Virus record (IMG/VR): IMGVR_UViG_3300009545_000050
Coordinates: 1-30,892 of that record
Strand: one strand, 5' to 3'
Length of the DNA: 30,892 bases
Origin: a virus
In this document: one piece after another, positions 1 through 30,709 of the stretch
Numbering within the stretch: position 1 is the first letter of the stretch
How the letters are laid out: each line of letters starts with the position of its first letter
Position numbers and translations under genes: made by a program
Notes under the pieces: generated by a model
Seen by the model: the letters and a program-made list of their open reading frames with translations, nothing else
The model's database searches: none
What the model was told of the DNA's origin: nothing

Positions 1-381
1 GCTAACCCAGGCCAATCCTCCGGCTCATTGATTCCTACAACATGGAATCATGCTGTATTCTCTTGGGCAATTCAAAATGCTAATGCCACAATGAAAGTTC
101 GTAAATCTGAATACGTTCCTTCTTTGAACTATTTCATCAGAGTAATGAACCGCGATTTCAATTACTCAAATAATCCAACGTATGTTTACGATGGGAGTGA
201 TGGAGTTCACCCAGCAGGATTGATTTACAATCAAGATTTTATTTCAAATCCAACGACTTATGTAACAACCGTAGGTTTGTATAATGATAACAATGAACTT
301 GTTGCCGTCGCAAAATTAAGCCGTCCGGCTTTGAAGACATTTGACAACGAATTGCTCATTAAAGTCAGATTGGACTTCTAA
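1..381 (+). CDS. Virion structural protein, 5'-truncated, C-terminal part
   Basis: The frame is open from the first base, so the gene starts outside the window; the TTG at 28 is not a credible start. The visible 126 codons end in a module that recurs at the end of the propeller gene ending at 7528. A segment with FNYSNNPT is followed by TTVGLYNDNNELVAVAKL and a terminal VRLDF, against FNVSTNPT, TAIGLYDKTDLVAIAKL and VKMDF in the other protein. This shared ending suggests both proteins belong to the same virion substructure, probably tail or baseplate decoration, but the role is inferred. No catalytic motif is visible. The gene that follows starts ten bases after the TAA. Confidence 0.7.
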   Translation, partial: ANPGQSSGSLIPTTWNHAVFSWAIQNANATMKVRKSEYVPSLNYFIRVMNRDFNYSNNPTYVYDGSDGVHPAGLIYNQDFISNPTTYVTTVGLYNDNNELVAVAKLSRPALKTFDNELLIKVRLDF

Positions 382-390
382 TAAAATGAG

Positions 391-2370
391 ATGCTCAAGT
401 TACTCCATAAAGATGATACACAAACTACACCGTTCGCTGTTACAAAAAATTGGGGACTATCCAATGTAACAAATGAGGATTCAATCCTCATGGAACATAG
501 TGGTAGTGATGGTTTGCCTGTTGCTTTAGAATATCTCGTCCTTCTTCCAAATGAAGCAATCACCGCGAGTGCGTGCAATATTGCGTTAGAACAACAAACT
601 GATGATTTAGCAAGATATCGTTCTGGACTAAAATTATCAGGCATTTTTTATCCAAATTTAGAACCTACAAATTTGGATGGAACTTACAAACGTGTTGTAT
701 ATTCACAAGTAGTGAATATGTTTTATAATGATTATCGTGACCCAACAAAAATTTGGGGATTGGAACAAATTGATTTCGATAAATCACAAACAAAAAGATT
801 TCTTTCAGACAAATTTAAAATGTTTGAAATTCCTCAACCAGTCTATGGTGAAAAAATTATACCAAACACGGTTAAAATGGTTGATAGAACTACTGATAAT
901 GATTACACTATTACAGACGATGGACATTGCAATTTGTTTGCAGGAAAAAATATTTTTGCACACCAACAAGAATTAGGAAATTATTCAAATCAATATCTAA
1001 GTGGTAGTAGTGGTTATTGTGATTCTTATTACGATAATACAAGTCCTCCTGACGCTCCTTTGATGGATGTTTTATATTATGGTTGTTTACCTTCTGCAAG
1101 TATTTCTTGGAATGTAAATAATTGGACAGTAACTTCTTACGTTGTAGAAAAATCCACCGACGGTATAAATTATAGCCAGTCATTCAATGGATTAGGATAC
1201 TCATTTAATGATGTAAATATTGATTATAGTGGAAGTTATTGGTATAGAATGTATGCAGTCAACAACAAAGGAACATCTTCATATAGTTCTGTGGCGATGA
1301 TTTTTGCCGAGTCTGTTTATTGGGATACTGATGCTGATTTCTGGGACATCGCAGGAACATATTGTGGCCCCGCAAGTTGGTCAGTATCAAGTTCCGTATC
1401 ATCGTGTATGGTTCTTGACCATTATGTTGATGTTGCTAGTTTTAATTTTCAAATCGGCGCTACAGGTCAAGAAACAAACGGTAAAACAATTATTACAGAT
1501 GGAACTACACACGGTGCAATATTCAATACCGTAACTGAAACTGTTGATGTTGATTTATTTGCCGACAAGGGATTATATTGTCGTGCTGGTATCTATGTTC
1601 AAGCATATGATAAATTCTTTATATCCAATTTAAATTCAAATGTTGACGTTCTTGATGGAAATGGAAATTTGTTAGCAAGTGATATTCTTACTACATCATA
1701 CGAATTAATTTATGATGAAGAAATTTGTTATAATCCAAACAGTAACAAAGTCTATGCTATAATTCAAGATAATCCACACGGAGGAAATTATCAAATAGTT
1801 GAAATAGACCCTGTAACATATGCTACAACATTTACACCTTCTCCTGCTACAGGAAATTCAGATGTGATTACTGGTGGAAATTATATAGCATTATTTGACG
1901 TAGGAAATTATGTAATTGATATAGTATCAACATCAAATCTTTCTGCTATACACAGTTCTGTAGATGTTTCTATGTATCCTTATGGTGTAGGATTTGGTAA
2001 CTGTTATGCCACATCAAATGGAAAAATGTATTTTCCGGTGTATAAAAATATAACCGATTCTAATGCTAGTGCTGTGATAGAAGTAAATCCGGCGACTGGC
2101 ACAATTGATTATGAATACGATTTTGGTTCAAGTAATGATGGAATTTATGGCTTATCTTATAACTCCGTCACAGATAGAATTGTTACTGTATTTAACGGAA
2201 GTTATAACGGCGGTTGGGCTATAAATCCTATAGCAAGAACTACGTGTTCAATATCAATTCCGTTATATTCTAATTCCGCGTATGCCGGCCCTATAGTCAG
2301 CGACGTAGCAACAGGAAAAACTTTTGTAGTATTGAGTAATGGAACCAATGGATTAGGTGTATTGGTATGA
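391..2370 (+). CDS. Large virion/adhesin-like protein with FN3 domain and beta-propeller-like C-terminus
   Basis: This is a 659-residue protein of unassigned function. Residues 1-205 are paralogous to the N-terminus of the next gene, with shared blocks such as TPFA.TK.W, GLP.ALE, ALEQQT and NLFAGKN.F.HQQELG. Residues about 218-305 look like a fibronectin type III domain (PPDAP start, SYVVEKSTDG, YWYRMYAVN). The remainder has repeated strands with NPNSNKVYAI, EVNPATGTIDY and NSVTDRIV, resembling a YVTN/NHL-type beta-propeller. This architecture suits a tail-fibre or baseplate-attached receptor-binding or decoration protein, which is an inference. The ATG at 391 is chosen because the paralogy begins at its first residues. 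Its stop overlaps the next start (ATGA). Confidence 0.75.
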   Translation: MLKLLHKDDTQTTPFAVTKNWGLSNVTNEDSILMEHSGSDGLPVALEYLVLLPNEAITASACNIALEQQTDDLARYRSGLKLSGIFYPNLEPTNLDGTYKRVVYSQVVNMFYNDYRDPTKIWGLEQIDFDKSQTKRFLSDKFKMFEIPQPVYGEKIIPNTVKMVDRTTDNDYTITDDGHCNLFAGKNIFAHQQELGNYSNQYLSGSSGYCDSYYDNTSPPDAPLMDVLYYGCLPSASISWNVNNWTVTSYVVEKSTDGINYSQSFNGLGYSFNDVNIDYSGSYWYRMYAVNNKGTSSYSSVAMIFAESVYWDTDADFWDIAGTYCGPASWSVSSSVSSCMVLDHYVDVASFNFQIGATGQETNGKTIITDGTTHGAIFNTVTETVDVDLFADKGLYCRAGIYVQAYDKFFISNLNSNVDVLDGNGNLLASDILTTSYELIYDEEICYNPNSNKVYAIIQDNPHGGNYQIVEIDPVTYATTFTPSPATGNSDVITGGNYIALFDVGNYVIDIVSTSNLSAIHSSVDVSMYPYGVGFGNCYATSNGKMYFPVYKNITDSNASAVIEVNPATGTIDYEYDFGSSNDGIYGLSYNSVTDRIVTVFNGSYNGGWAINPIARTTCSISIPLYSNSAYAGPIVSDVATGKTFVVLSNGTNGLGVLV

Positions 2371-3524
2371 TAAAATTATTGAAACAATATCAAGTTCAAG
2401 TGACGCCGTTTGCAGCGACGAAAGATTGGAATTTGAATAATAGTGACAATGATAATCTTCTACTGTTTGAATCAACAGGCTCGGAAGATGGATTGCCTAT
2501 TGCGTTAGAATTTTTAGATTATGGTGATGGTAGTGGATATCCTGTAGAAAATGCTCTTTGTGATATTGCCCTTGAACAACAGACGAATGATTTGGCAACA
2601 AGTCAAACCGGATTAAATGTAAAAGGCATTGTTAATGTAGATACGGAACCTTTAAATGATGACGGAACATACAAACGTTCAATCTATCATCAAGTCAAGA
2701 CAATGTTTTATAACAGTTATTTAGACCCATCAAAAATTTGGGGCATAGAAAATATTGACTTTACATTATCACAAACCCAAAGAAATTTATCAGACCAGTT
2801 TAGATTAATTGATGTCCCTAGAAGTGTATATGGTGATAAGATTGTTCCAAAATCTGTCAGAGTGTATGACAATACGCTTGATAATGTGTATTTGATTCAA
2901 GATGATGGTAATGGAAATTTATTTGCAGGTAAGAATTTATTCTCACACCAACAAGAATTGGGTGAATATATCAATGAATTTATATCACATCTTTCATCAT
3001 CTTATTGTGATGATTATTGGGCAAATCACGACCACGTTACAACGGAAACGGCAAGTATGCAAATCGCATTCTTTGGCGGTAGAATTGAAAGTCAATTACA
3101 CACCGATACGGCAAGTATGCAAATTGGATTCGTGTATGGTAGCACTCAATTGATGCCTCCATTGATTGATTATCCGGTATTTAATGGAATTTTGTTTGTA
3201 TCAGGTTCTACTGTAAATACCGTCATAACTGACAGTAGTTCAGTTGATTATCCAACTATGACTATGAACTTTGTATCAGGTTCTACTGTAAATACCGTCA
3301 TAACTGACAGTAGTTCAGTTGATTACCCTGTATTTACAAGTATGTCATTTGTATCGGGTTCATTGATAACTACAACTATATTTGATAGTAGTTCAGTTGA
3401 TTACCCTGTATTTAATAGAATATTCTTTGTATCTGGCTCGCAAGTTACTACGACATTCTTAGTGACTATGAGTTTCAATCAAATGAATTCCAGCATCGGA
3501 TTTGTGGGTGGAAATGTAATATAA
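2367..3524 (+). CDS. Fibre-like virion protein, paralogue of the preceding gene, with C-terminal tandem repeats
   Basis: This is a 385-residue protein. Residues 1-205 align with the previous gene at roughly half identity by eye, including the YKR..Y.QV..MFYN and IWG.E.IDF blocks. The C-terminal domain is unrelated to that gene. It has two TASMQI units near residues 228 and 248, then four units of 25-26 residues starting DYPxx and containing FVSGS and DSSSV. Such short beta-rich repeats are typical of fibre shafts or binding domains. ATG 2367 overlaps the previous TGA, so translation is probably coupled. A conserved attachment N-terminus with a different distal part in each copy points to a duplicated virion anchor with exchangeable tips. 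The exact role is unknown. Confidence 0.75.
   Translation: MIKLLKQYQVQVTPFAATKDWNLNNSDNDNLLLFESTGSEDGLPIALEFLDYGDGSGYPVENALCDIALEQQTNDLATSQTGLNVKGIVNVDTEPLNDDGTYKRSIYHQVKTMFYNSYLDPSKIWGIENIDFTLSQTQRNLSDQFRLIDVPRSVYGDKIVPKSVRVYDNTLDNVYLIQDDGNGNLFAGKNLFSHQQELGEYINEFISHLSSSYCDDYWANHDHVTTETASMQIAFFGGRIESQLHTDTASMQIGFVYGSTQLMPPLIDYPVFNGILFVSGSTVNTVITDSSSVDYPTMTMNFVSGSTVNTVITDSSSVDYPVFTSMSFVSGSLITTTIFDSSSVDYPVFNRIFFVSGSQVTTTFLVTMSFNQMNSSIGFVGGNVI
3168..3476 (+). repeat. In-gene tandem repeat, about 75-78 bp units x4
   Basis: Four units start at 3168, 3246, 3321 and 3399 with lengths 78, 75, 78 and about 78. Bases 3195-3250 and 3270-3325 are identical over 56 bp. All units keep the reading frame and encode the DYP...FVSGS...DSSSV repeat of the fibre-like protein. 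The last unit diverges after the FVSGS segment. Confidence 0.85.
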
Positions 3525-3547
3525 CAAATATGTATTGAGGTAAACGT

Positions 3548-4810
3548 ATGAATAATCAAGAATCAAATAATGTAAAACTCCAAGCCTCTGTGGCACAGTC
3601 ATTAAGCGGTAAATATAAACTATTTGTTATAGGAGCCGATGAAGAAGTTGTATGGGAACAGCCAGATTGGCAAAAGAATTTAATTTTGAATCAAGGAATG
3701 GATGCTTTGGCAACTCTTGATTATGGTAGTATAATGAACAATGCCTTTGCAGGAAATGGGACTAGAACCAATTCAATATCATCAGGAGATTCATCAGGCT
3801 CAATTTCAACTTCTATATTTACATTATTTCCAGGTGTCACCGGTCTTCAAGCATTAACAGGTTCAAATTCCGGTTATACAAATGCTCTTGAAGTTGGTGA
3901 TATGATTAAATTTAACGATTCATCAGAAGCCAGAGTATTGGCAGTATCAGGTATTTCAGCATCAGTTACACCATCTACAGGAGTTGCACAACAACCATTT
4001 ACAATCTGGAAAACATCACAAGTTGGATTAAATTCTCCACTTCATGTTGTTGGAACAGGAAATTGGTTCACTGGAAATCAAGATGGAACATATGCCGGAA
4101 CAACAATTGTTGGCAATCTTCAAAAAAATCGAAGAAGTTGGGATTTCAATTATGAAACTTCTTCTGTAGTATTTACAGAAGTTGGTGTGGGTTGGGGAAC
4201 ACTTCAATCAACTGTTTTTAGTCGTGTATTATTACCATTTACACAATCAATTGGCGTTGGACAAAAATTAAGATTATTGTATGAATTGGATATTGCAATG
4301 TATCCTACAGCAAGTTCTCCTGGTCTTCCTGCTACGGCATCAATTTCTGGATGGCCGGTTGCGCCCTCAACAGACACAGGATTTTACTACAATTTACAAA
4401 AATGCGGTGTCATCAATGGTTGGGTAACCAGTATAGCCACAAATGCAGGTGCTGATACTAGAGGATGTGACCCTGGAGTAGGATTTACTGCGTGGGTATC
4501 AAACAGTTCATCATCAAATGCAAATTATGATAGTGCAACAAATAGAACTTCTGGATGGAGCACGTATAATGCCAATATGAGCACACAAACATATACACCA
4601 TTAAGTTTTACACTATATCGTGATGTCACATTTGATGTAGCCACTGCTGTTAGAAATGACCTTCGTTCTATGGGAGTAGGAAATAACTGGAGAAGCAATG
4701 GAGCCGCTGACCAATATTTTTCATGTGTTTTTAATCAGAATCAAACAAAAACAAACATTCAAACTTTAAGTTTAACATTCGTTTGGAACTGGGGAAGAGT
4801 GTTAGCCTAA
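3548..4810 (+). CDS. Structural (tail/fibre-like) protein, unassigned
   Basis: This 420-residue protein is rich in Ser, Thr, Gly and Asn with regular beta-type hydrophobic spacing. It has no signal peptide, membrane segment or catalytic motif. The N-terminus has KYKLFVIGADEEVVWEQP followed by NLILNQGMDALAT, and aromatic-rich strands continue to the end (TLSLTFVWNWGRV). The composition and its place among adhesin-like genes suggest a virion surface protein. GAGG at 3537-3540, seven bases before the ATG, is a reasonable ribosome site and supports this start. I do not recognise a specific family. Confidence 0.65.
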   Translation: MNNQESNNVKLQASVAQSLSGKYKLFVIGADEEVVWEQPDWQKNLILNQGMDALATLDYGSIMNNAFAGNGTRTNSISSGDSSGSISTSIFTLFPGVTGLQALTGSNSGYTNALEVGDMIKFNDSSEARVLAVSGISASVTPSTGVAQQPFTIWKTSQVGLNSPLHVVGTGNWFTGNQDGTYAGTTIVGNLQKNRRSWDFNYETSSVVFTEVGVGWGTLQSTVFSRVLLPFTQSIGVGQKLRLLYELDIAMYPTASSPGLPATASISGWPVAPSTDTGFYYNLQKCGVINGWVTSIATNAGADTRGCDPGVGFTAWVSNSSSSNANYDSATNRTSGWSTYNANMSTQTYTPLSFTLYRDVTFDVATAVRNDLRSMGVGNNWRSNGAADQYFSCVFNQNQTKTNIQTLSLTFVWNWGRVLA

Positions 4811-4826
4811 ACTTGCATTCTCGACC

Positions 4827-4834
4827 TATTTATA
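4827..4834 (+). promoter_or_regulatory. TATTTATA motif just before the propeller gene start
   Basis: GACCTATTTATA ends four bases before ATG 4838. If it were a -10-type late promoter, transcription would begin at or inside the start codon, giving an almost leaderless mRNA. A translational role is therefore also possible. Confidence 0.35.
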
Positions 4835-4837
4835 GTC

Positions 4838-4978
4838 ATGATTGCACAGGTTTATAATCAAAACTTCGGTTGGTCGGTTACTTGCGACGGCCCTTGGGCC
4901 GCAGTCGGTAATCCAAATCCATTTAGATTTGACCCGTTAACTGCAAGCATAAACAGAACAGGGTCAGTTGAAGTTTAA
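4838..4978 (+). pseudogene. 5' fragment of the FG-GAP propeller gene, ending at in-frame TAA
   Basis: ATG 4838 opens a 46-codon frame whose residues 10-26 form an FG-GAP-type motif (FGWSV, then WAAVGNP). It ends at TAA 4976-4978. The same frame continues without another stop to 7528. The residues on either side of the stop (GSVEV, then KYN) resemble the end of a blade, where another blade has AVFMFRKYN, so the TAA stands where an aromatic residue is expected. The fragment therefore looks like the true start of the following gene rather than a separate peptide. It may be a real nonsense mutation, a readthrough site or a sequence error. Confidence 0.65.
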
Positions 4979-5152
4979 AAATATAACATCAATACCGACG
5001 TTCACGATTCTAAAACAACTCTTTATAGACCGCCTACATCAATTGAACAAGTCATTCTTTCTACGGAAGATAATAACATAGCACCAACTGGTCCAGATTA
5101 CTATCTTCACACTGAATACACAGGTTCAATTCCATATACAGCAGATAAAGAT

Positions 5153-7528
5153 TTGTTGGTTGATGCTGCTCAATACTACACATCGTCCGAAGATGGTTAT
5201 GGTTGGGCAGTAGATGTAAGAAATGCGTTATTGGCAGTAGGCAATCCATATTACAGAAATATATTTACTTTTTCATCTTCATCTTTAGTATTTTCTGGTT
5301 CAGGATACGTAGATTTATTTGATTTATCTGTATTGGATATTGACCCATATGCAAATAGAATTCCTCCAACTATTATAGGAACTGGGTCTATTGGAGCATA
5401 CATTTCAATTAATGTAAGTGTTCCAGCATATCAAAATTATTCCTATGTAATTTTTCAAACAAAAGATTCATTACCAACTTCAAACTGGTTGAATGTTGCT
5501 GTAGGTTCAACATCTAATAGTGGTGGCGATATAACAATTCCTACCTATTATACAACATCTAGCATCGTTGGATTGAGTATGAGAGCAGTCGGTGTAGTCG
5601 GAACAAACCCATATCTTACCACAATTTACAATCCCGTTACAACAACAACGTCTTCATTTGGATATTCTCTATCAATCAATGATGAATGGTTGGCTGTTGG
5701 TTCGCCGGAAGAATCATCAAGTGTTGGTGCAGTATTCATGTTTAGAAAATACAATGGTAATAATTTGAGTTGGTCATTTGTTCAAACGTTACCTACGCCT
5801 CCTGGATTAGGTTCCGGCGATGAGTTTGGTTCTTCGATTGGATTAAATAAGGCATCATCTTCATTTAGTTGGAGTATGGTAGTTGGTAGTTCAAAAATAA
5901 GCAGTTCAAATGCTTACGTCTATGAATTTGACGGAACACAATGGAATAATACATTTACATTGAAACCAAATAGTAGTTCAATTTATCCATTACCATTCTA
6001 TCCTACATTACCAATCATAAACAATTATCCAAACAACTACGATTCATTTGGTCATTCAGTTGCAATGTATGGAAACAGTGTAATGGTTGGTGCTCCATTT
6101 GATAGAACCATTCAAGAATATACAGGGTCATTACAATACAGACAAGGTGCAGTATATTTCTTTGAACGTTGTGCTAATAGAGACTATGGTTATTATTTAG
6201 CAAGAAAATCATATGGCAACGAAAAGATAATGAACAACAATGAACTCGGTTGGTCTGTTAGTATTTTTGACCAATATGCCGTTGCCGGAGTTCCGAAACT
6301 TAATGCTCTATCTTCTTCTATCTGTTATTTAAGAGCCTCATTATTTCAAGAAAATTACTGTGGCGATGAAAGTGAAAACGCTTTGTGTGGACAATTTGTT
6401 TTATTCAACAAAGCCACAGGTTCAATTCCTGATACTACAAATGTCGATTGGGATATCACCAACGTTTATCAAGTAAAGAAACGTCTATTATCTCCATATC
6501 GCGTATATGGATGGGACGCTTGTGTGTCAGGCCAATTTGTTACAATCGGTGCTCCAATGTTAATTTCCGGGTCATCAACCGAAATGGATTTGAATGCTTT
6601 GACAGGAAGTTTTACTGGTAGCGTTTCAAATCTAGGAGATTTAAGCGGTAAAGCATACATTTACAATTTAAAGAATCTTCGTGAACAATTCTATGTTGGT
6701 AACATTTTTTACCGTAACGGTAAAATTGTAATCATGACTTCTGGTTCTAATTTTGAAGGATTACAATTAAACAGTGTAGCAACAAATGAATATGAATATG
6801 AAATTGATTTCAAATCAAAACAAACAGTATTTGAAAAACAAGTCGTATGTCCTGTGGAACCAGGTGAGTTCAATGTTAGCACAAATCCAACATCAATTGT
6901 ATTACCAAATGCAGTATTTGATATAAATAACAATGGCAAATTTGATTTTCAAGATGTTGATGTATTGTTGAGATACATGGCATATAAGAGCACCGAAACA
7001 AGTGGAGCGCCTAATACTGATTGGACATCTTCAATTCTCGACACAACCACCGACGAGGAAACGTCTGTTTACAATATGTATTCGTCGTCTTGGTCTGGAA
7101 CTGACAGTCTATTTTCATCAAGTTATTCTACTATCAATAATACCTTGTATAACAGTCTGGATTTCAATAATGACAATAAGATTAACTACAATGATATGAA
7201 CATCTTGTGGAAGTATTTTATCTATCGTTTGACTCAAAAGAACTACGATTCTTATATTACTCCAAATTCTCAAAATAAATATTTGAGCAGTATTCTTGAC
7301 TATATGAATGGATTGACTCTTCGTGGTCAACCGCCTATGATTGATGGTAATTTCCTACAATATGCCGCTTTAAGTAAAACCGACCCAACAGGCTCGTATC
7401 TGGCGCCTACTGTGACGGCTATTGGACTCTATGACAAGACCGACCTTGTTGCTATCGCTAAATTGGGTTCACCAATCAAGATAACTCCAGATTTTCCAAT
7501 TAATTTTGTTGTGAAAATGGATTTCTAA
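5153..7528 (+). CDS. FG-GAP beta-propeller virion protein with dockerin-like EF-hands (downstream of an in-frame stop)
   Basis: The frame is open from 4979; TTG 5153 is only the first listed start and has no ribosome site, and the first in-frame ATG is far inside. The 791 residues hold six FG-GAP-like blade motifs, at 5198, 5657, 5825, 6047, 6245 and 6506 (for example FGHSVAMYGNSVMVGAP). The seventh lies upstream of the TAA at 4976. Between the first two of these motifs sits an extra Ig-like stretch. After the propeller come an EFNVSTNPT segment, two dockerin-like EF-hand loops at 6920-6955 and 7160-7195, and a C-terminal module shared with the gene at 1-381. FG-GAP propellers mediate adhesion in other proteins, often with Ca2+. 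A host-binding or baseplate role is inferred. Confidence 0.75.
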   Translation: MLVDAAQYYTSSEDGYGWAVDVRNALLAVGNPYYRNIFTFSSSSLVFSGSGYVDLFDLSVLDIDPYANRIPPTIIGTGSIGAYISINVSVPAYQNYSYVIFQTKDSLPTSNWLNVAVGSTSNSGGDITIPTYYTTSSIVGLSMRAVGVVGTNPYLTTIYNPVTTTTSSFGYSLSINDEWLAVGSPEESSSVGAVFMFRKYNGNNLSWSFVQTLPTPPGLGSGDEFGSSIGLNKASSSFSWSMVVGSSKISSSNAYVYEFDGTQWNNTFTLKPNSSSIYPLPFYPTLPIINNYPNNYDSFGHSVAMYGNSVMVGAPFDRTIQEYTGSLQYRQGAVYFFERCANRDYGYYLARKSYGNEKIMNNNELGWSVSIFDQYAVAGVPKLNALSSSICYLRASLFQENYCGDESENALCGQFVLFNKATGSIPDTTNVDWDITNVYQVKKRLLSPYRVYGWDACVSGQFVTIGAPMLISGSSTEMDLNALTGSFTGSVSNLGDLSGKAYIYNLKNLREQFYVGNIFYRNGKIVIMTSGSNFEGLQLNSVATNEYEYEIDFKSKQTVFEKQVVCPVEPGEFNVSTNPTSIVLPNAVFDINNNGKFDFQDVDVLLRYMAYKSTETSGAPNTDWTSSILDTTTDEETSVYNMYSSSWSGTDSLFSSSYSTINNTLYNSLDFNNDNKINYNDMNILWKYFIYRLTQKNYDSYITPNSQNKYLSSILDYMNGLTLRGQPPMIDGNFLQYAALSKTDPTGSYLAPTVTAIGLYDKTDLVAIAKLGSPIKITPDFPINFVVKMDF
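6920..7195 (+). other. Dockerin-like pair of calcium-binding EF-hand loops
   Basis: Loop 1 (6920-6955) reads DINNNGKFDFQD and is followed by VDVLLRYM. Loop 2 (7160-7195) reads DFNNDNKINYND and is followed by MNILWKYF. Asp or Asn at loop positions 1, 3, 5, 9 and 12 and the following helix with L-[RK]-Y match the dockerin type I pattern. The two loops are 80 residues apart, longer than in cellulosomal dockerins. Confidence 0.7.
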
Positions 7529-7531
7529 CCA

Positions 7532-7539
7532 TATTTATA
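7532..7539 (+). promoter_or_regulatory. TATTTATA motif before the 91-residue gene
   Basis: ACCATATTTATA lies directly after the propeller gene stop and 20 bases before the next ATG, upstream of its AAAGGA ribosome site. The spacing would suit a promoter with a short leader. Confidence 0.35.
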
Positions 7540-7558
7540 ATTAAAGGAATAACAGATT

Positions 7559-7834
7559 ATGCCAATACCAACACCAAGACCATCATTGACAACCGACCTA
7601 GCAACACGTTATGCTACGCAGAGGGTTGGTGGTGCATTTAACGACAGAGATATCATTGTTAATGGTGTTGATGGACTATTTGCCAATTACCAAGCCATTC
7701 AATTTCAGAAAGCAAACGGATTTTTAACCAGAGTTCAACAAGGTGTTTCTGACTTTAAAAATGATGGTAAAGATTTATCATCATATGTTCAAGGACTAAG
7801 CACTACACCTTATGATGCTTCATTTCCTTCATAA
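7559..7834 (+). CDS. Small hypothetical protein
   Basis: This is a 91-residue soluble protein with a Pro-rich N-terminus, no membrane segment and no recognised motif. AAAGGA at 7543-7548 lies about ten bases before the ATG, and a TATTTATA motif sits at 7532-7539, so it may be independently expressed late. It follows the propeller gene by 30 bases and is closed off downstream by the hairpin at 7855. A structural role is suggested only by position. Confidence 0.65.
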   Translation: MPIPTPRPSLTTDLATRYATQRVGGAFNDRDIIVNGVDGLFANYQAIQFQKANGFLTRVQQGVSDFKNDGKDLSSYVQGLSTTPYDASFPS

Positions 7835-7854
7835 TTTATAAAATTACTTTAAAG

Positions 7855-7892
7855 AAAACGATATGTGTATATATTACATATATCGTTTTTTT
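7855..7892 (+). terminator. Rho-independent terminator, abutting the next start codon
   Basis: Bases 7855-7869 pair with 7875-7889 (one G-U pair, 5-base loop), starting AAAACGATAT and ending ATATCGTTTT. A run of seven T spans 7886-7892. The stem is AT-rich but long. The ATG of the next gene is at 7893, so no room is left for a ribosome site outside the hairpin. Confidence 0.75.
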
Positions 7893-8408
7893 ATGTCTAA
7901 AAATATCATTCTTGGCCTCGACGCATCCACTTCAATAGTCGGATGGGCATTTTCTGAAAGTGGTTCTGTTTTGGATGCTGGTTTTTTGAATATCTCCAAA
8001 TTAGAAACTAATAAAGAAAAGGGGAAATTTGTAATATCTTTTCTTAAAGAACACAAACTTACCGATTCTGTAAATCATGTAAATCTTGAAGCCGCTTTAT
8101 CTGGTTTTGGTGGTGGACTGACTTCACAACAAACATTGATTACTCTTTCAAGATGGAACGCAGTATTTGAATACATGATGGGTGAGAGTTTTACCTTTCC
8201 AATCGTTCTATGTAATGTAAATACAATGAGAAAAAAGGTGTTTGGTAAGGCTAGAATTCCAGGAATAAAACCGAAAGAATACGTCAAATCACAAGTTCCT
8301 CTTTACGTTTCAAATATCAAAGAATTTGAGAAACTTAACAGAAATGGTGATTGGGATGCTCATAATAGTGATATGTATGACGCAATTGTTTGTTCTTTAT
8401 ATGGATGA
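7893..8408 (+). CDS. RuvC-like Holliday junction resolvase
   Basis: This is a 171-residue RNase H-fold protein. Asp10 lies in ILGLDASTSIVGWAF, Glu66 in VNLEAA, and Asp160 and Asp163 in SDMYDAIVCSLYG. Their spacing fits the four acidic metal ligands of RuvC-type resolvases, and the length is close to the 170-175 of bacterial RuvC. It would cut four-way junctions made during recombination-dependent replication and trim branches before packaging. T4 uses the unrelated endonuclease VII for this. ATG 7893 is preferred over the frame start at 7863, which lies inside the terminator stem. The ATG directly follows the T run, leaving no normal ribosome site, so translation may be weak or controlled. 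Confidence 0.85.
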   Translation: MSKNIILGLDASTSIVGWAFSESGSVLDAGFLNISKLETNKEKGKFVISFLKEHKLTDSVNHVNLEAALSGFGGGLTSQQTLITLSRWNAVFEYMMGESFTFPIVLCNVNTMRKKVFGKARIPGIKPKEYVKSQVPLYVSNIKEFEKLNRNGDWDAHNSDMYDAIVCSLYG

Positions 8409-8414
8409 AGGGTA

Positions 8415-8422
8415 TATTTATA
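8415..8422 (+). promoter_or_regulatory. TATTTATA motif before the first Ser/Ala-rich gene
   Basis: GGTATATTTATA follows the resolvase stop by six bases and lies 27 bases before ATG 8449. It separates the resolvase from the fibre-like genes. Confidence 0.35.
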
Positions 8423-8448
8423 AATGACAACTTTTGACTAAAAAACAT

Positions 8449-9009
8449 ATGGCATATCCAAAATATACCCTCACAGGAAAGACACCGGCACAAACTTACG
8501 AGAATCTCGTTCAGTTTAACTCTGAATCATCATCTTTAGTCAATGGCGATGGAAATGACATAACGGCGTCATTAAATCTCACTGTGGCAAATGCCGTATC
8601 CGCATCATGGGCACCCACCAATTCAGTAGGTGTAATAAGTTCTAGTTGGGCATCTAGTTCTTTAAGTTCAAGTAATACATTAGGAATTGATGCTGGTTCG
8701 GATGTTTTTATCCATTCACACCAAGGTTCAATTAGCGTTCTTGCCACTACTAACGTATTTCTTAGTGCTACTGGCGCAATGTATATGGAAGCCGCAGGTG
8801 GTAATATTGAAATGTATCCAACTACAACAGTCAAAGTATTTGGAGAAATTGATTCATTAGGAGCCATAACCGCATCAAATGGATTTGTTGGAACTGCATC
8901 TTATGCTACGGCTTTAACCTCTACGGCAGGTTTGACGGCTACCGTGTATTTGACGGCCAGTGTAACAACAATGAGTTTCGTAAACGGATTGTTACAATCT
9001 GTATCATAA
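8449..9009 (+). CDS. Ser/Ala-rich fibre-like protein
   Basis: From ATG 8449 the protein has 186 residues. It begins MAYPKYTLTGKTPAQTYENL. A Ser/Ala-rich stretch (VSASWAP, SSSWASSSLSSSN) is followed by beta-rich strands such as DVFIHSHQGSISV and VYLTASVTTMSFVNGLLQSV at the end. These short S-A-aromatic motifs are also found in the next gene and are common in fibre or bundle-forming phage proteins. TTG 8434 would add five residues, but ATG 8449 is more natural. A TATTTATA motif lies at 8415-8422. It is probably a virion protein; no specific family is recognised. Confidence 0.65.
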   Translation: MAYPKYTLTGKTPAQTYENLVQFNSESSSLVNGDGNDITASLNLTVANAVSASWAPTNSVGVISSSWASSSLSSSNTLGIDAGSDVFIHSHQGSISVLATTNVFLSATGAMYMEAAGGNIEMYPTTTVKVFGEIDSLGAITASNGFVGTASYATALTSTAGLTATVYLTASVTTMSFVNGLLQSVS

Positions 9010-9017
9010 TTTAATCT

Positions 9018-9647
9018 ATGCCAGTTATACCATCATTAGTTTTAACAAATACAAATCCTGTAGTAACTTATACCGCATCGGTGGTTACGTCTGGGTCTGT
9101 TATTGCCGATTCTTTGGGCAATCAAATTACATACTTACAATTGACGTGTTCATTTTCTGAAACGTCCTCTGTTCAGACAAGTTGGGAAATGTCATCATCA
9201 TATGCAAGTGCCTCAACTTGGGCAAATTCATCATCTTATGCTTCTCGTTCTTTTGCATCAACGAGTGCTAGTTTTTCAAGTGCATCAATATCTTCAAGTT
9301 GGGCAAATGTCGCCGGAACAATGACAGCATCTGGATTAATTGGTATGATTACCAATAGTGTTAGTGCTTCAAGTGTAACGGCATCGACTTTTGGAATTCC
9401 ATCTGGCTTATTCAGTGTTGACCCTGCTGGTGATATTATAGGTTGGAATTTGACGGTTAATAAGATTGATTCTGACAGTCATATTATACAAACCGATAGT
9501 CAAGGTAACATTTTTGCTTATGGCATCACCGCATCTGTGGCAAATGCAAAGAACATATCAGTGGTTGCCTGTGATAATCCATCTGTTATATTGTTTTTAC
9601 ACGTCAGTCAATCCGGTCAGTTTAATTGGGATACGACTCCAAATTAA
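9018..9647 (+). CDS. Ser/Ala-rich fibre-like protein with SSYAS repeats
   Basis: The protein has 209 residues. The middle carries about eight short repeats of the type SSYAS, STWAN and SSSWAN between residues about 55 and 100. A more ordinary beta-type domain follows (GLFSVDPAGDIIGWNLTVNK, SQGNIFAYGI). It starts eight bases after the previous stop and shares its composition, so the two are probably partners on the same fibre or decoration. No enzyme motif, signal or membrane segment is visible. Function is inferred from composition and context. Confidence 0.65.
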   Translation: MPVIPSLVLTNTNPVVTYTASVVTSGSVIADSLGNQITYLQLTCSFSETSSVQTSWEMSSSYASASTWANSSSYASRSFASTSASFSSASISSSWANVAGTMTASGLIGMITNSVSASSVTASTFGIPSGLFSVDPAGDIIGWNLTVNKIDSDSHIIQTDSQGNIFAYGITASVANAKNISVVACDNPSVILFLHVSQSGQFNWDTTPN

Positions 9648-9658
9648 CGAGTTTTCAT

Positions 9659-9681
9659 AAAAAGTTGACGTTCTACTTTTT
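9659..9681 (+). terminator. Weak hairpin with T-rich 3' side, possible terminator
   Basis: AAAAAGT at 9659-9665 can pair with ACTTTTT at 9675-9681 around a nine-base loop. It lies between the fibre-like gene and the primase. The stem is short and almost all A-U, so termination is uncertain. Confidence 0.3.
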
Positions 9682-9701
9682 ATAGATTAGCATCCACCAA
9701 A

Positions 9702-10631
9702 ATGCTAAAGGAGTCTCAATTATTTTCCCTTCTTGACAAGGTGTTGACCCAAACTTCTTATATCCGTAAGGGTGAAGAAGCGGTTTATTATTGTCCTTTC
9801 TGTTCCCATCATAAAAAGAAACTTGAAATCAACGTTCGAACTCAAGAATGGCATTGTTGGATTTGCAATGCGCGAGGTAGAACAATCAGTTCACTTTTTT
9901 ATAAACTCAAAACCAAAGCACAGTATTTTGATGAACTCTATAAAATCATCGGAACTGATTGGAAACGTAGTGATGTTGAGACAATCAACAAACAGATTTG
10001 TTCTTTGCCCGACGAATTTATACCTCTTTGGCAGCCATCGGACACAACTGATTATGGTTTGGCAATGTCATACCTTAATAAACGAAATGTGTCTATGGAT
10101 GAAATCATTCGTTACAATATAGGATTTTGTGAAAGTGGGATTTATGAAAAACGAGTTGTTATTCCATCATATGATAAAGATGGCAATATAAACTTTTTTG
10201 CTGCTAGGTCTTATGTAGATACATTTTACAAATATATGTTGCCTCCGTGGCCAAAAACAATGATTGGATTTGAATTGTTTGTAAATTGGAATGAACCGAT
10301 AACTCTTGTAGAAGGAACCTTCGACGCTTTGGCTGTAAGAAATAATTCAATACCTCTATTTGGAACCACTTTATCACTAGGCTTAAAATTGGCAATAGTT
10401 TCAAATAATGTCAAACGTGTAAACGTGGTTCTTGATAATGACGCATTAAGTCAGGCCATAGACATTTATGATGATATTGAAGATTTACAGATAAATAAAA
10501 TTGATATTCATCTTGTAAAATTAGGAGATAAAGACCCTTCCGTATTGGGATTTGAAAAAACACAAGAGTTAATTTTCAATTCAAAAGCATTTGATTTTGG
10601 AGATATAATTAGAGCAAAACTTAATTCATGA
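9702..10631 (+). CDS. DNA primase, T4 gp61-like (zinc finger plus TOPRIM)
   Basis: The protein has 309 residues, near the size of T4 gp61 (342). The N-terminal zinc finger is visible as CPFC (31, 34) with nearby His, and HCWIC (52, 55). The TOPRIM core has Glu204 and Asp208 in TLVEGTFDAL, then the DxD at 245-247 in VVLDNDA, with KLGDKDP following as in DnaG-type primases. It would make RNA primers for lagging strands, working with a replicative helicase that is not in this window. Its TGA overlaps the next ATG, so it heads a coupled replication-recombination operon. ATG 9702 is the only plausible start; an AAAGGAG string lies just inside the gene rather than ahead of it. Confidence 0.88.
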   Translation: MLKESQLFSLLDKVLTQTSYIRKGEEAVYYCPFCSHHKKKLEINVRTQEWHCWICNARGRTISSLFYKLKTKAQYFDELYKIIGTDWKRSDVETINKQICSLPDEFIPLWQPSDTTDYGLAMSYLNKRNVSMDEIIRYNIGFCESGIYEKRVVIPSYDKDGNINFFAARSYVDTFYKYMLPPWPKTMIGFELFVNWNEPITLVEGTFDALAVRNNSIPLFGTTLSLGLKLAIVSNNVKRVNVVLDNDALSQAIDIYDDIEDLQINKIDIHLVKLGDKDPSVLGFEKTQELIFNSKAFDFGDIIRAKLNS

Positions 10632-11107
10632 AATCATTAGAGACAAATTGGATTCGTAAAAAAACCGATAAAACGTTGCCTATTCCTGAAATAATAGAAT
10701 GGCCTCTTGTTGGTGCTGGTGGAGTATATTATGCGCCACAACCAAAAGCCAGAATGTTTACTTTAACAGGAAAACCAATATCAATGAAATATGGTGTTAT
10801 AGTCTTAGGTAATAAACATGAAGATGATGTAAGAGCAGGAATCATTGCCCATGAGTGGCGTCATCATATGCAGCATTTTGCAGGAGTCAAATATGACAAA
10901 CCACAATGTAAGTCACACGAAGCGAAGGGTAAAAAGTATAATGAAATGGCAAGAAAGTATTTTTCAACGTCTCAAGCCGAAATGGATGCGTTAAGATTTC
11001 AATACAAACACGTAGGATTCTTGGGACTTTACAAACAATGGGAAGAACTGTTTTACGATTTTATAGAAGATTTACACGTCAAACCAATCATCAGTTATGC
11101 CAATTAA
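10628..11107 (+). CDS. Putative HExxH zinc metallopeptidase-like protein
   Basis: This 159-residue protein has an AHEWRHHMQHF segment with His75, Glu76 and His79, the HExxH zinc site of metallopeptidases. Glu118 in AEMDALRF is a candidate third ligand, the arrangement seen in gluzincins. There is no signal peptide or membrane segment, so it would act in the cytoplasm or the virion. It sits between primase and recombination nuclease, with a start overlapping the primase stop and an end overlapping the next start, so it is translated with the DNA-metabolism genes. Substrate is unknown. It could process a phage or host replication protein, or be a non-catalytic zinc fold. Confidence 0.6.
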   Translation: MKSLETNWIRKKTDKTLPIPEIIEWPLVGAGGVYYAPQPKARMFTLTGKPISMKYGVIVLGNKHEDDVRAGIIAHEWRHHMQHFAGVKYDKPQCKSHEAKGKKYNEMARKYFSTSQAEMDALRFQYKHVGFLGLYKQWEELFYDFIEDLHVKPIISYAN

Positions 11108-14100
11108 ACAACTACCAACTAACATAAAATTCAGTCATATAATTCATGTAGCCGACATTCATATCAGGCTTACAAGACGCCATGACGAATACAAGACTGC
11201 TTTTAAAAAGTTTTTTGAGGATGTTTATAGTTCTCCATCTACCACGGCAGTTTTCATTTTAGGCGACGTTGTAAATAGTAAATTGGATTTGAGTCCTGAA
11301 TGCGTTGACTTGGCCGCAGAGTTTTTGAAAGAATGTGCCAATCTACGACCAACGATTCTTATCACAGGTAACCACGATACAAATCTCACAAATAGACATC
11401 GTATGGACAGTTTAAGTCCTATCGTAGATGCTATCAATCATCCTAATTTGTTCTATTTGAAAGAGTCTGGATTGTATAGTTTGGGTAATATTTGTATCAA
11501 TAATTACAGTGTATTTGATACACCCGACAAGTATATGAAAGGAATTGACATTCCTGCAATATACAAGAATCAACACGAATATTTAATTGCCACATATCAC
11601 GGACAAGTGGATGGTGCAACTACGGATTTAGGATTTAAGTTGGCGTTTCCACCAATTACAATTGATTTATTTGACAATCATGACATAGTTTTGATGGGTG
11701 ATATTCATAAAAAGCAAGACCTTCAAGCCTACGATTACAACACATTTAAACCAATCATTCATTATTGTGGTTCGATGATTCAACAGAAACATGACGAACC
11801 TTTAAAGGGTCACGGTTACTCATTTTGGAACCTTTCAAGACGTGATTATTCTCACGTTGAAATACAGAATGACTACGGATTTTTTAGTGTGTTAGTTAAA
11901 AATGGTGTCATTATGACCGACACTACTAACATCCCAAAGAAGGCCAGAATTCGTATTCAACATGATAATTGCACTCCATCGGAGATAAAATCCGCAGTCG
12001 TTCATGTCAAAGGATTGACCGAAGTTATTGAAGTCTCATATCAAAAATTAGACGTATCAAAATCTTTAACAAGAATACCATCTGCGTCAGGAAACATAGT
12101 TTTGGGTGACATTAATGACAAAGATTATCAGACAAAACTGATTACAGACTATCTAAAGACTAAATTAAGTGTGACCGACCAAACCATCATTGACGGTGTT
12201 ATTAAGATAAATAACGACGTAAATAATGTGGTTAAGAAAGATGAATTTGCAAGAAACATTCGATGGGTTCCTATCAAATTTGAATGGGAAAATATGTTTT
12301 CTTACGGTGAAGGAAATGTAATTGACTTCACAAAAACGAAGGATTTGGTTGGGTTATTTGCGGCTAATACATCTGGAAAATCAAGCATTTTCTCGGCTCT
12401 GACCTTTTGTTTATTTGATAAATGTGAGCGTGCATCCGGTGCTAAAAGCATCATGAATGACCAAAAAACCACATTTAGTTGTAAGTTTGAGTTTGAATTG
12501 GACGGTAAAAGATACTTCATTAAACGTGATGCCAAGACAGATAAAAAGGGCAAAGCCAAGGTTGATGTCAAGTTCTGGAAGATTGAAAATGGTGAGGAAG
12601 TTGACTTGAATGGCGAACAAAGACGCAATACAAATGAAGTAATTAGAGAATATTTAGGGTCTTATGATGACTTTGTATTGACTTCTCTAAGCGTTCAAAA
12701 TGGTAAAAATAATGCGTCAATTATTGACATGGGTGACACAGATAGAAAAGATTTGTTCGCTCAATTCATGGGTCTTACAGTGTTTGACAGACTCTATACG
12801 GAAGGAAATGAACATCTAAAAGAGTTGTTGGTGATGCTTAAAACCTATAGAAATGATGATTACACAAGCAAACTTGTGGAGTATCAGAATTTCTTAGAGC
12901 AGGCAGAACTCCTATATGAATCAGAACAAAACGTCTTATTAGAGATAGGTAAAAATCGTGATTTATTACAACAAACCGTGTTGGAAACAACTAAAAAACT
13001 CATTAAAATTGATGGGGATATTCCTTTGCTTGGGTATAGTCAGATGTCTTTGGATAAGGCCAAAGTCATATTAGACAATGCCAAAAAAGACATAGACAGT
13101 AGAGAAAAAGGAATTGTAATTGTGTCTGCACAAGTGACACAAATTGAAACTGAGATAACAGAATTGGAGTCAAAAAACGTTTCTGACCTATCTTCTCAAT
13201 TAAGACTGTTTAAAGAAACCAAAAGAAACATTGAAGATAAACGTGAACAATTGAAGGCAAGTTATCTTCGAGACATGAAGATTTTTGACAGGGCGAGAGA
13301 CATTGATTACAATCCTGATTGTGAATTCTGTGTAAAACACGCCGGTGCAATCGCACAAGATGCTAAGGAAGCCAAGGAAAGAATGGAACAAATTCAATCC
13401 GAAGCGACTGAAATAAAAACCAAACTCGACATAGTTGAAGCAAAAATTACTGAAATAGAATGGTCATACGAAGCAAATATTCGATTGACAGGACTGCTTT
13501 CTAAACGAAATACACTAAAAGACAACCGTATAAAACTTACGGACGATATAAATTCTATGCGACAAAATTTGTCTAAATTAGAAGATGACGTTAAGAAACA
13601 TGAAAAGAATATTGAACTCTACAATAAGAATATAGAGTCAATGACATTCAACGAAAACATCAAAAAACAAATAGGAGAATTTGAAAAAGAGTTAGTTCAA
13701 GTTGAACATTCACACAAGACAAAGACGAAAACTTTGATGGATATTAACAGTAAAATGTCTGTATGTAAAAATCAAATAAATGATATCAACAACAAGATTT
13801 CAAAGATTAAACTTGTAGAAGAAGAACATAAATTGTATGAAATCTACTGTCAGGCAGTCAGTCGTGATGGTATTCCATTTGAAGTCATTACTGCGACTGT
13901 TCCTGAAATTCAGAATGAAGTTAATAGCATTTTGAGTCAAGTTAGTGAATTTACCGCTCTATTTGAGACGGATGGAAAGAACATAATTCCATATATAGTT
14001 TATGATGGGAGACAGTGGTTAATGAGTCTCACAAGCGGTTTTGAGAAGTTTGCCTTGTCTCTGGCTATACGTGTGGCGTTGATTAACATATCAAATCTAC

Positions 14101-14306
14101 CAAGACCTAACTTCCTTATCATAGATGAAGGATTTGGTGTTCTCGACGCAGAGAATTTGGCACAAATGAGTTCATTATTTGCCTATTTAAAGAGTCATTT
14201 TGACTTCATTATGATAGTATCTCACCTTGAAGCATTGAGGGATGTGGTAGATAACCACATTGAAATAACTAAAGATAATGGGTTTTCCAAGGTCAATTTC
14301 GTATAA
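11097..14306 (+). CDS. Fused Mre11-Rad50 type recombination nuclease (gp47-gp46 fusion)
   Basis: This 1069-residue chain combines two proteins that are separate in T4. Residues 1 to about 370 are the Mre11/SbcD/gp47 phosphoesterase: VADIH (Asp20, His22), GDVVN (Asp57), GNHD (92-94), YHGQ (His168) and GDIH (201-204). Residues about 390-1069 are the Rad50/SbcC/gp46 ATPase: Walker A in AANTSGKSS (423-431), a coiled coil with a CEFC zinc hook (742-745), a degenerate signature LTSGFEKFALS (from 978), Walker B LIIDEG (about 1007-1012), D-loop LDAE and the switch His about 1043. It would resect double-strand ends to give 3' tails for strand invasion. The start overlaps the preceding gene by 11 bases. 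The frame is unbroken across the junction. Confidence 0.9.
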   Translation: MPIKQLPTNIKFSHIIHVADIHIRLTRRHDEYKTAFKKFFEDVYSSPSTTAVFILGDVVNSKLDLSPECVDLAAEFLKECANLRPTILITGNHDTNLTNRHRMDSLSPIVDAINHPNLFYLKESGLYSLGNICINNYSVFDTPDKYMKGIDIPAIYKNQHEYLIATYHGQVDGATTDLGFKLAFPPITIDLFDNHDIVLMGDIHKKQDLQAYDYNTFKPIIHYCGSMIQQKHDEPLKGHGYSFWNLSRRDYSHVEIQNDYGFFSVLVKNGVIMTDTTNIPKKARIRIQHDNCTPSEIKSAVVHVKGLTEVIEVSYQKLDVSKSLTRIPSASGNIVLGDINDKDYQTKLITDYLKTKLSVTDQTIIDGVIKINNDVNNVVKKDEFARNIRWVPIKFEWENMFSYGEGNVIDFTKTKDLVGLFAANTSGKSSIFSALTFCLFDKCERASGAKSIMNDQKTTFSCKFEFELDGKRYFIKRDAKTDKKGKAKVDVKFWKIENGEEVDLNGEQRRNTNEVIREYLGSYDDFVLTSLSVQNGKNNASIIDMGDTDRKDLFAQFMGLTVFDRLYTEGNEHLKELLVMLKTYRNDDYTSKLVEYQNFLEQAELLYESEQNVLLEIGKNRDLLQQTVLETTKKLIKIDGDIPLLGYSQMSLDKAKVILDNAKKDIDSREKGIVIVSAQVTQIETEITELESKNVSDLSSQLRLFKETKRNIEDKREQLKASYLRDMKIFDRARDIDYNPDCEFCVKHAGAIAQDAKEAKERMEQIQSEATEIKTKLDIVEAKITEIEWSYEANIRLTGLLSKRNTLKDNRIKLTDDINSMRQNLSKLEDDVKKHEKNIELYNKNIESMTFNENIKKQIGEFEKELVQVEHSHKTKTKTLMDINSKMSVCKNQINDINNKISKIKLVEEEHKLYEIYCQAVSRDGIPFEVITATVPEIQNEVNSILSQVSEFTALFETDGKNIIPYIVYDGRQWLMSLTSGFEKFALSLAIRVALINISNLPRPNFLIIDEGFGVLDAENLAQMSSLFAYLKSHFDFIMIVSHLEALRDVVDNHIEITKDNGFSKVNFV

Positions 14307-26222: not shown

Positions 26223-26270
26223 AAAATCGTTCATAAGTGTGGTATTGTTACCCCTTATGAACGATTTTTT
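26223..26270 (+). terminator. Perfect-stem terminator overlapping the guaC start codon
   Basis: AAAATCGTTCATAAG (26223-26237) pairs perfectly over 15 bp with 26254-26268. A small inner GGTA/TACC stem lies in the loop, and six T follow the C-G-A at 26265-26270. It ends the head-assembly operon. ATG 26257 of the next gene lies inside the 3' arm. Confidence 0.8.
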
Positions 26271-27270
26271 ATTGTCTTACGATACAGTTACACTCTCTCC
26301 ACGTCATTCATCTTTATCCAGTAGAAGTAAAGCAGACCCGTCAGTTAATTTGTGCGGTTGGAAATTTAAATTGCCGATTGTTCCTGCAAACATGGAAGAT
26401 ATTATCGGCGTCAGTAATGCAAAATGGTTATCTGAAAATGGGTTCTTTTATATCTATCATAGATTTGGTAAAGAAAATGAACAACATCCACAATTAACGC
26501 CATATTCATTTGTAGAATTAGCAAATAGAACCGATGAAAATTGGAAACTGATAAGCATATCAACAGGCGTGGGTGAGGATTCTTTATCAGAATTAAAACA
26601 TATGAAAGCCAGAGACTTTCGTATAGATTTTATAACAATTGATGTTGCTCATGCCGACCACGATAATGTAGAACCCATTATCAATTTCATACGACAAAAT
26701 TTTCCACAAACCAAACTCATAGTTGGAAATGTTGCTACCGCAACCGGAGTTCAATATCTTACAAAATTAGGAGTTGATGCAATAAAAGTAGGCATAGGAG
26801 GCGGTTCTATATGCACAACTCGTTATATGACGGGATTTCACGTTCCCACCTTACAGACATTGAGTGATATTATAGAATGGAAAACCCATTCCAGAGACAT
26901 TTTAGGACACCCAATAACCGTCCCACCCATTATTGCCGATGGTGGAGCCAAACACTATGGCGACATTGCCAAAGCGTTAACGTTCGAAGCCACGATGGTT
27001 ATGAGTGGCGGATGGTTCGCATCTTGTATTGATTCTCCTGCCAAAATAGTTAACGGCATGAAAGTTTATCGTGGTTCAACTTCTTATGAAATGAAAGGAC
27101 ACAAGAAAAATGTGGAAGGCCGTGTAGTTGAATTGGTTGAGGGCACAACATATGAACAAAGACTTGCGGAAATAAAGGATTCCCTACAGTCTTCTATATC
27201 ATATGCAGGCGGAAATGACTTAACCGCCTTCAATTCAGTGAGTTGGGGTAGAATTCTACCTTTTCATTGA
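26257..27270 (+). CDS. guaC: GMP reductase (GuaC-like)
   Basis: This 337-residue TIM-barrel enzyme would reduce GMP to IMP and ammonia with NADPH. It lacks the CBS domains of IMP dehydrogenase and matches bacterial GuaC in order: KFKLPIVPANM, FFYIYHRF, FITIDVAH, the Cys loop KVGIGGGSICTTR (Cys186, Thr188), PIIADGGAKHYGDIAKAL, KKNVEG (Glu287) and SLQSSISYAGG. The Cys loop has Gly where GuaC and IMP dehydrogenase normally have Pro (GIGPGS), and AGHEES is replaced by ASCIDS. ATG 26257 gives the N-terminus expected of the family, but it lies inside a terminator stem. In a phage it would shift guanine nucleotides towards IMP and adenine, perhaps for an AT-rich genome. Confidence 0.92.
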   Translation: MNDFLLSYDTVTLSPRHSSLSSRSKADPSVNLCGWKFKLPIVPANMEDIIGVSNAKWLSENGFFYIYHRFGKENEQHPQLTPYSFVELANRTDENWKLISISTGVGEDSLSELKHMKARDFRIDFITIDVAHADHDNVEPIINFIRQNFPQTKLIVGNVATATGVQYLTKLGVDAIKVGIGGGSICTTRYMTGFHVPTLQTLSDIIEWKTHSRDILGHPITVPPIIADGGAKHYGDIAKALTFEATMVMSGGWFASCIDSPAKIVNGMKVYRGSTSYEMKGHKKNVEGRVVELVEGTTYEQRLAEIKDSLQSSISYAGGNDLTAFNSVSWGRILPFH

Positions 27271-29587: not shown

Positions 29588-30709
29588 ATGAAATGGTTAG
29601 TTCCAAATACAATCTATGTAACTTTACACGGTTCACAGGCTTACGGTTTAAACAACGAACTGTCTGACGTGGACGTGAAGGGTATCGTTATCCCTCCAAG
29701 GGATGTCGAGAACAACCTTTTTCACAAGTTTGAACAGGCGATTGACAACAAGGAACTTGAGGCGTCTTTGGAGCATCTAAAGAACCCCAAGAATCCAAAG
29801 TTTGAATCCTCTCTTTATTCTTTGAAGAAGTTTATGGTCTTGGCTGCTAATGTCAATCCAAACATCATCGAAGTGTTGTGGACAGACCCGGCAGACCATT
29901 TCGTGTTCAAACATCCAATGGAAGTCTTGATGGAAAACAGACATTTATTCTTGTCTTCCAAGGCGAAGTTCACATTCTCTGGCTATGCTTTTGCACAGGC
30001 GGCGAAGATTGAACGTCACCGTAAGTGGATTGTTCGTGGAGAACTTGAAAAGCCTGACAGAGCCAAGTTTGGTCTGCCAGAGGAACGTGCTCCACAGATG
30101 AACGATATCTTTGGTTTAATCAAGTCCGAAGTCGAACGTTGGAATCTTTCACAGTTTCCATTGAACGAGGAAGAACGTGACGAACTCAAGTCAACAATGT
30201 GGGAACTCATTTACAATGTTTCACAGGTGGACGTTAATGAAGGTAATTGGCCGAAGGTTTACGAGGCCGGCGTCATCGAACGTCTTGCCAAGGAATATAA
30301 CTTGAAGGAAGAAGTTGTTGATGTCTTACAGCGAGAAAGATTGTATAAGAAGGAATTAGAATCCTATCAGTCTTGGGTAAACTGGAAGAAGAATCGTAAT
30401 CCTGCCAGACACGCTCTTGAAGTGAAGTCTGGTTACGACACAAAGCATGGTTCACACCTTGTTAGGTTAATGAGGATGGGTCTTGAAATCTTAACAGAAG
30501 GAAAGGTCTATGTGAAGCGTCCTGACCGTGAGGAAATTCTTGCCATTAAGAATGGTGAATGGTCTTACGAACAGGTTATCCAATTCGCCAAGGATATGCA
30601 AGTGAAGTTGGATGAAGCCTACAAGACAACAAAATTGCCTAAGGCAGTTAATTACGAAAAGGTAAATGAACTTTACCACAATATCTACGAAGGATACCAC
30701 TCTGTATAA
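29588..30709 (+). CDS. Predicted nucleotidyltransferase, YcgL/COG3541-like
   Basis: The protein has 373 residues. HGSQAYGLNNELSDVDVKGI near the N-terminus (residues 14-33) has the GS...DxD core of the Pol-beta nucleotidyltransferase fold, with Asp27 and Asp29. IEVLWTDP and a long helical C-terminal domain follow, as in COG3541 proteins of phages and bacteria. The substrate of this family is unknown to me. Codon use differs from its neighbours, with AAG far more common than AAA for Lys and more C in third positions. It has its own promoter and is closed by a hairpin at its stop codon. Confidence 0.8.
   Translation: MKWLVPNTIYVTLHGSQAYGLNNELSDVDVKGIVIPPRDVENNLFHKFEQAIDNKELEASLEHLKNPKNPKFESSLYSLKKFMVLAANVNPNIIEVLWTDPADHFVFKHPMEVLMENRHLFLSSKAKFTFSGYAFAQAAKIERHRKWIVRGELEKPDRAKFGLPEERAPQMNDIFGLIKSEVERWNLSQFPLNEEERDELKSTMWELIYNVSQVDVNEGNWPKVYEAGVIERLAKEYNLKEEVVDVLQRERLYKKELESYQSWVNWKKNRNPARHALEVKSGYDTKHGSHLVRLMRMGLEILTEGKVYVKRPDREEILAIKNGEWSYEQVIQFAKDMQVKLDEAYKTTKLPKAVNYEKVNELYHNIYEGYHSV

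Follow-up and report, generated by a model that had tools for sequence, protein, structure and literature searches.

The FG-GAP/Cage motif of integrins consists of an aromatic pair, G, an aromatic residue, X13-20, P, X2-15, and G (PMC3192720), and some integrin blades also carry a calcium-binding DxDxDG loop (PMC3192720, PMC8023676). We analyzed a 30,892-nucleotide viral stretch (IMG/VR record IMGVR_UViG_3300009545_000050; the window) containing a reading frame for a protein that resembles the integrin alpha N-terminal beta-propeller (FG-GAP/Cage, PF01839) in its seven blades, in FG...GxP-like elements in the blades, and in its best structural matches. A relaxed Cage-like pattern was found in most blades (5 in the window; as many as 7 true blades among the relatives), but the strict form does not occur in every blade. 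Unlike the integrin propeller, the phage protein has 10-18% identity to integrins, a dockerin-like tail, and no DxDxDG in its blades; among 13 sequences, this pattern was absent from the propeller and confined to the dockerin-like part. Due to this absence, we consider the protein integrin-like in fold and have not filed it as an integrin domain.

Similarity to PF14312 (FG-GAP_2) repeat proteins was evident in 13 of 13 members of our alignment (A2; best match, 1.6e-31), but in Pfam scans no more than one or two of the seven blades pass singly, the others having diverged. Similarity of the propeller by weak sequence match or by fold was also observed to FG-GAP-like proteins of Sinorhizobium phage Phosso, Agrobacterium phage Atu_ph07 (a “hemagglutinin”), and an uncultured member of the Caudovirales (A0A6J5S3H5), but identity is only 14-26% and confined to a portion of the protein, with no common architecture shown. 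The Phosso protein is a giant hypothetical protein encoded by a gene of ~11 kb (L055, positions 3967-12807). Literature searches combining FG-GAP with either phage tail fibre or dockerin gave no results. The family comprises ~15 distinct members in IMG/VR, with one weak match among 50,697 named phage records; scanning 84,980 bacterial and archaeal genomes yielded none. We regard this coherent, little-described family of phage integrin-like propellers, possibly receptor-binding proteins in jumbo phages, as the useful outcome of the analysis.

Propeller, dockerin-like segment, and C-terminal module

The initial annotation described a single reading frame interrupted once by an in-frame TAA, and translation showed this to be accurate: the frame has 896 codons, one internal TAA at codon 47, and a terminal TAA, leaving 849 residues after the internal stop (Table 1).

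Table 1. Features of the propeller locus in the window
Feature	Position	Strand	Basis
Gene directly upstream, tail-fibre family	3548..4810	+	PHROG 4176, E=1.5e-15
FG-GAP propeller reading frame, broken once	4838..7528	+	Translation; full-length open homologue L002, 89% identical
FG-GAP blade motif 1, upstream of the stop	4859..4921	+	Leave-one-out profile (residues 8-28)
In-frame TAA; all relatives have a Tyr or Phe codon	4976..4978	+	Alignment with relatives
FG-GAP blade motif 2	5192..5254	+	Leave-one-out profile
Insert of ~90 residues separating blades 2 and 3, without a Pfam match; largely absent in L034	5369..5641	+	
FG-GAP blade motif 3	5651..5713	+	Leave-one-out profile
FG-GAP blade motif 4, small insertion	5819..5896	+	Leave-one-out profile
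FG-GAP blade motif 5, matched by Pfam FG-GAP_2	6041..6103	+	Pfam and leave-one-out profile
FG-GAP blade motif 6	6239..6301	+	Leave-one-out profile
FG-GAP blade motif 7	6500..6562	+	Leave-one-out profile
Dockerin/EF-hand-like calcium loop 1, DINNNGKFDFQD	6920..6955	+	Motif and Pfam
Dockerin/EF-hand-like calcium loop 2, DFNNDNKINYND	7160..7195	+	Motif and Pfam
C-terminal module of 39 residues, common to gene ending at 381	7409..7525	+	46% identity, E=4e-8

Since blade counts by regular expression were too loose, we used leave-one-out profiles instead. These were applied to intact L004, a homologue that is gap-free relative to the window in the blade parts. A profile built from the other blades found blade 1 (residues 9-27) at E=1.6e-4, and five of the six remaining blades were found again at E<=0.002 when left out; blade 4 carries a small insertion and reached only 0.12. 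No eighth blade was found by these profiles. These findings confirm the proposed count of seven blades, one upstream of the stop and six downstream.

For structural modeling of the propeller, we used the intact relative L034, in which the insert following blade 2 is largely missing, and an alignment of 15 sequences. The resulting model had a pTM of 0.73 and a mean pLDDT of 63; an earlier model of the whole intact L004 protein from 7 sequences was poor (pLDDT, 33.7) and was set aside. Integrin alpha chains were the best structural matches to the L034 model (Foldseek E=1.7e-13; VIA Z 30.3 and rmsd 3.8 for 352 residues); WD40 proteins were nearly as good (VIA Z 28.9). A profile search against PDB sequences gave weak matches to integrin alpha-M only (E 0.02). 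From the structural matches, the propeller ring is well supported; the case for kinship with integrins combines the fold with the FG-GAP motifs. The model also refines the location of the stop, which had been placed at the end of a blade. The stop does lie within blade 1, but the aligned residue falls inside the third strand (model residues 43-50), with a fourth strand following (55-62), so that a 46-residue product would be predicted to contain about two and a half strands and no blade. In another homologue (L054, 3625-4182), blade 1 holds an extra domain of ~140-180 residues that weakly matches F5/8 type C (discoidin-like; E=0.004), which suggests sugar-binding inserts.

Downstream of the propeller, the segment with the two calcium loops scored above the Pfam cutoff of 22.9 bits for a dockerin type I repeat pair when analyzed alone (27.1 bits), as did the intact L004 protein (26.7 bits); the 849 residues of the window as a whole fell slightly below it (21.8 bits). 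No cohesin was found among the neighboring genes scanned. Copies of the C-terminal module (window 262-378 and 7409-7525) end two tail-region genes, the first of which (ORF 28-381) is the end of a longer gene (~393 residues in L004) cut by the window edge. The shared module is possibly a common attachment signal. The predicted architecture is therefore that of an integrin-like seven-bladed FG-GAP head followed by a dockerin-like calcium-binding segment and a short C-terminal module, which would anchor the putative adhesin.

Relatives spanning the stop and its probable age

Relatives spanning the stop site were collected by scanning with the sequence downstream of the stop, with a degenerate pattern across the site, and with two profiles. 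We obtained 19 IMG/VR contigs encoding 13 distinct proteins (43-89% identical). In all 19 contigs, a single frame runs open through this point and has Tyr or Phe in place of codon 47, as the initial annotation had expected, and an ATG occurs at the corresponding start place in all of them except L031. None of these relatives has a separate upstream gene of 46 residues, and we found no conserved readthrough or recoding element around the site among them. The degenerate pattern accepted any base at the third position of the site, so that stops could have been caught, and it caught none outside the window. No near-identical record turned up when the database was searched with the stop-site base left open. 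The third base of codon 47 differs among the window, L002, and L004, each having a different base. The homologue alignment thus gives a sense codon in 13 of 13 distinct relatives and supports reading the two open parts as one gene that encodes one continuous protein. The stop itself, which programmed readthrough would need to be conserved, occurs in 0 of the 13.

Comparison of the window with L002, its closest relative, gave a dS of ~0.9 and few coding differences, with a dN/dS of 0.095 before the stop and 0.073 after it. With L004 as the outgroup, 40 nonsynonymous and 128 synonymous changes were assigned to the window branch, and 74 and 114, respectively, to the L002 branch. As judged from these substitution counts, there is no relaxed selection on the rest of the gene in the lineage of the window. 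A long-dead gene would have accumulated a far larger nonsynonymous share than 40:128, which indicates that the stop is either very recent or absent from the phage. On this comparative evidence, we conclude that the stop is private to this contig and very recent, although in principle it could be long-standing in this strain with some rescue.

Interpretation of the stop

These findings make it very probable that the TAA reflects an accidental change in one copy of an otherwise intact gene family, either a fresh nonsense mutation or an error in the contig. One codon, aromatic in every relative, reads TAA in this contig, within the third strand of blade 1. Both readings had been offered initially, and both still stand, since only this contig has the stop; we give a consensus error of the metagenome contig close to an even chance and a real nonsense mutation a substantial probability just short of even. 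If the TAA is real, translation would end after 46 residues and this copy would yield no working propeller. Either way, the stop is ordinary and of little consequence, and annotators should treat both ORFs as one broken gene.

The proposal that programmed or suppressed readthrough sets adhesin copy number, with low-rate passage of the TAA giving a few full-length proteins, did not gain support and appears very unlikely. Strong purifying selection over the entire frame after the stop would agree with it, and an aromatic residue inserted at the TAA would fit, but a very recent stop explains the observed selection equally well. Furthermore, with a sense codon in all distinct relatives, there is nothing conserved to program. 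UAA is generally the least leaky stop, and TAA is the usual stop in the window, ending 23 of 27 genes (TGA ends 4 of 27). A tRNA gene search of the window found none, which likewise counts against suppression. A real TAA retained in the phage population, with weak suppression by the host giving a few adhesins as a strain-specific dose or host-range switch, has only a slight chance of being correct.

We similarly assign little probability to two genes, or to a translation restart at TTG 5153 or later that would produce a six-blade protein. The statement that no good start lies downstream was borne out, as the first in-frame candidates, TTG 5153 and ATG 5579, are both without a ribosome-binding site. 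However, the gene's own start, ATG 4838, is likewise without one, and a weak downstream start therefore cannot be dismissed on that ground; TTG 5153 opens an ORF of 791 residues. Against a restart, every spanning relative encodes one continuous protein, initiation at 5153 would lose the whole of blade 1 and leave a six-bladed propeller, and the stretch from the stop to 5153 is as conserved as the remainder of the gene. Reassignment of TAA to an amino acid in this phage has the open frame in its favor and nothing else, and we consider its probability negligible: the 23 genes ending in TAA indicate that this codon is not reassigned, and no further in-frame TAA occurs in genes comparable with relatives. 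Consistent with an accidental change confined to the propeller gene, no other window gene comparable with L004 is broken.

Phage lineage and neighboring genes

The window carries terminase, T4-type portal, and prohead protease genes, and propeller relatives occur on contigs of 365 and 250 kb, which together point to a T4-like jumbo phage lineage. Among named phages, Microcystis phage Mel-JY01 and Flavobacterium phages have the closest terminases (48%). From 28 to 14306, the genes of the window follow the order seen in L004, with the conserved ones at full length, and the variable tail genes at 391-2370, 8434-9009, and 9018-9647 match L004 partially, as modular fibres would. Considering its fold, its position beside tail-fibre genes, and its variable inserts, the intact propeller protein is probably a virion adhesin.

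Other observations from the window concern the neighboring genes. The genes at 391-2370 and 2367-3524 are tandem paralogues with similar N-terminal parts (~50-58% in cross-matches to relatives) and different C-terminal parts, and are likely interchangeable fibre genes. Scans for consensus promoters and terminators around the propeller gene gave chance-level results only. The + strand of the window contains six copies of the sequence TATTTATA, five of which (4827, 7532, 8415, 18870, and 21029) lie 11-52 bases upstream of a gene start. In L003, L004, and L006, this sequence is likewise found ahead of the homologous start; it is possibly a late promoter or another signal. Finally, we observed an IMP dehydrogenase/GMP reductase-like gene (26239-27270) and an RNA-repair nucleotidyltransferase-like (RlaP) gene (29588-30709) near the phage head genes.
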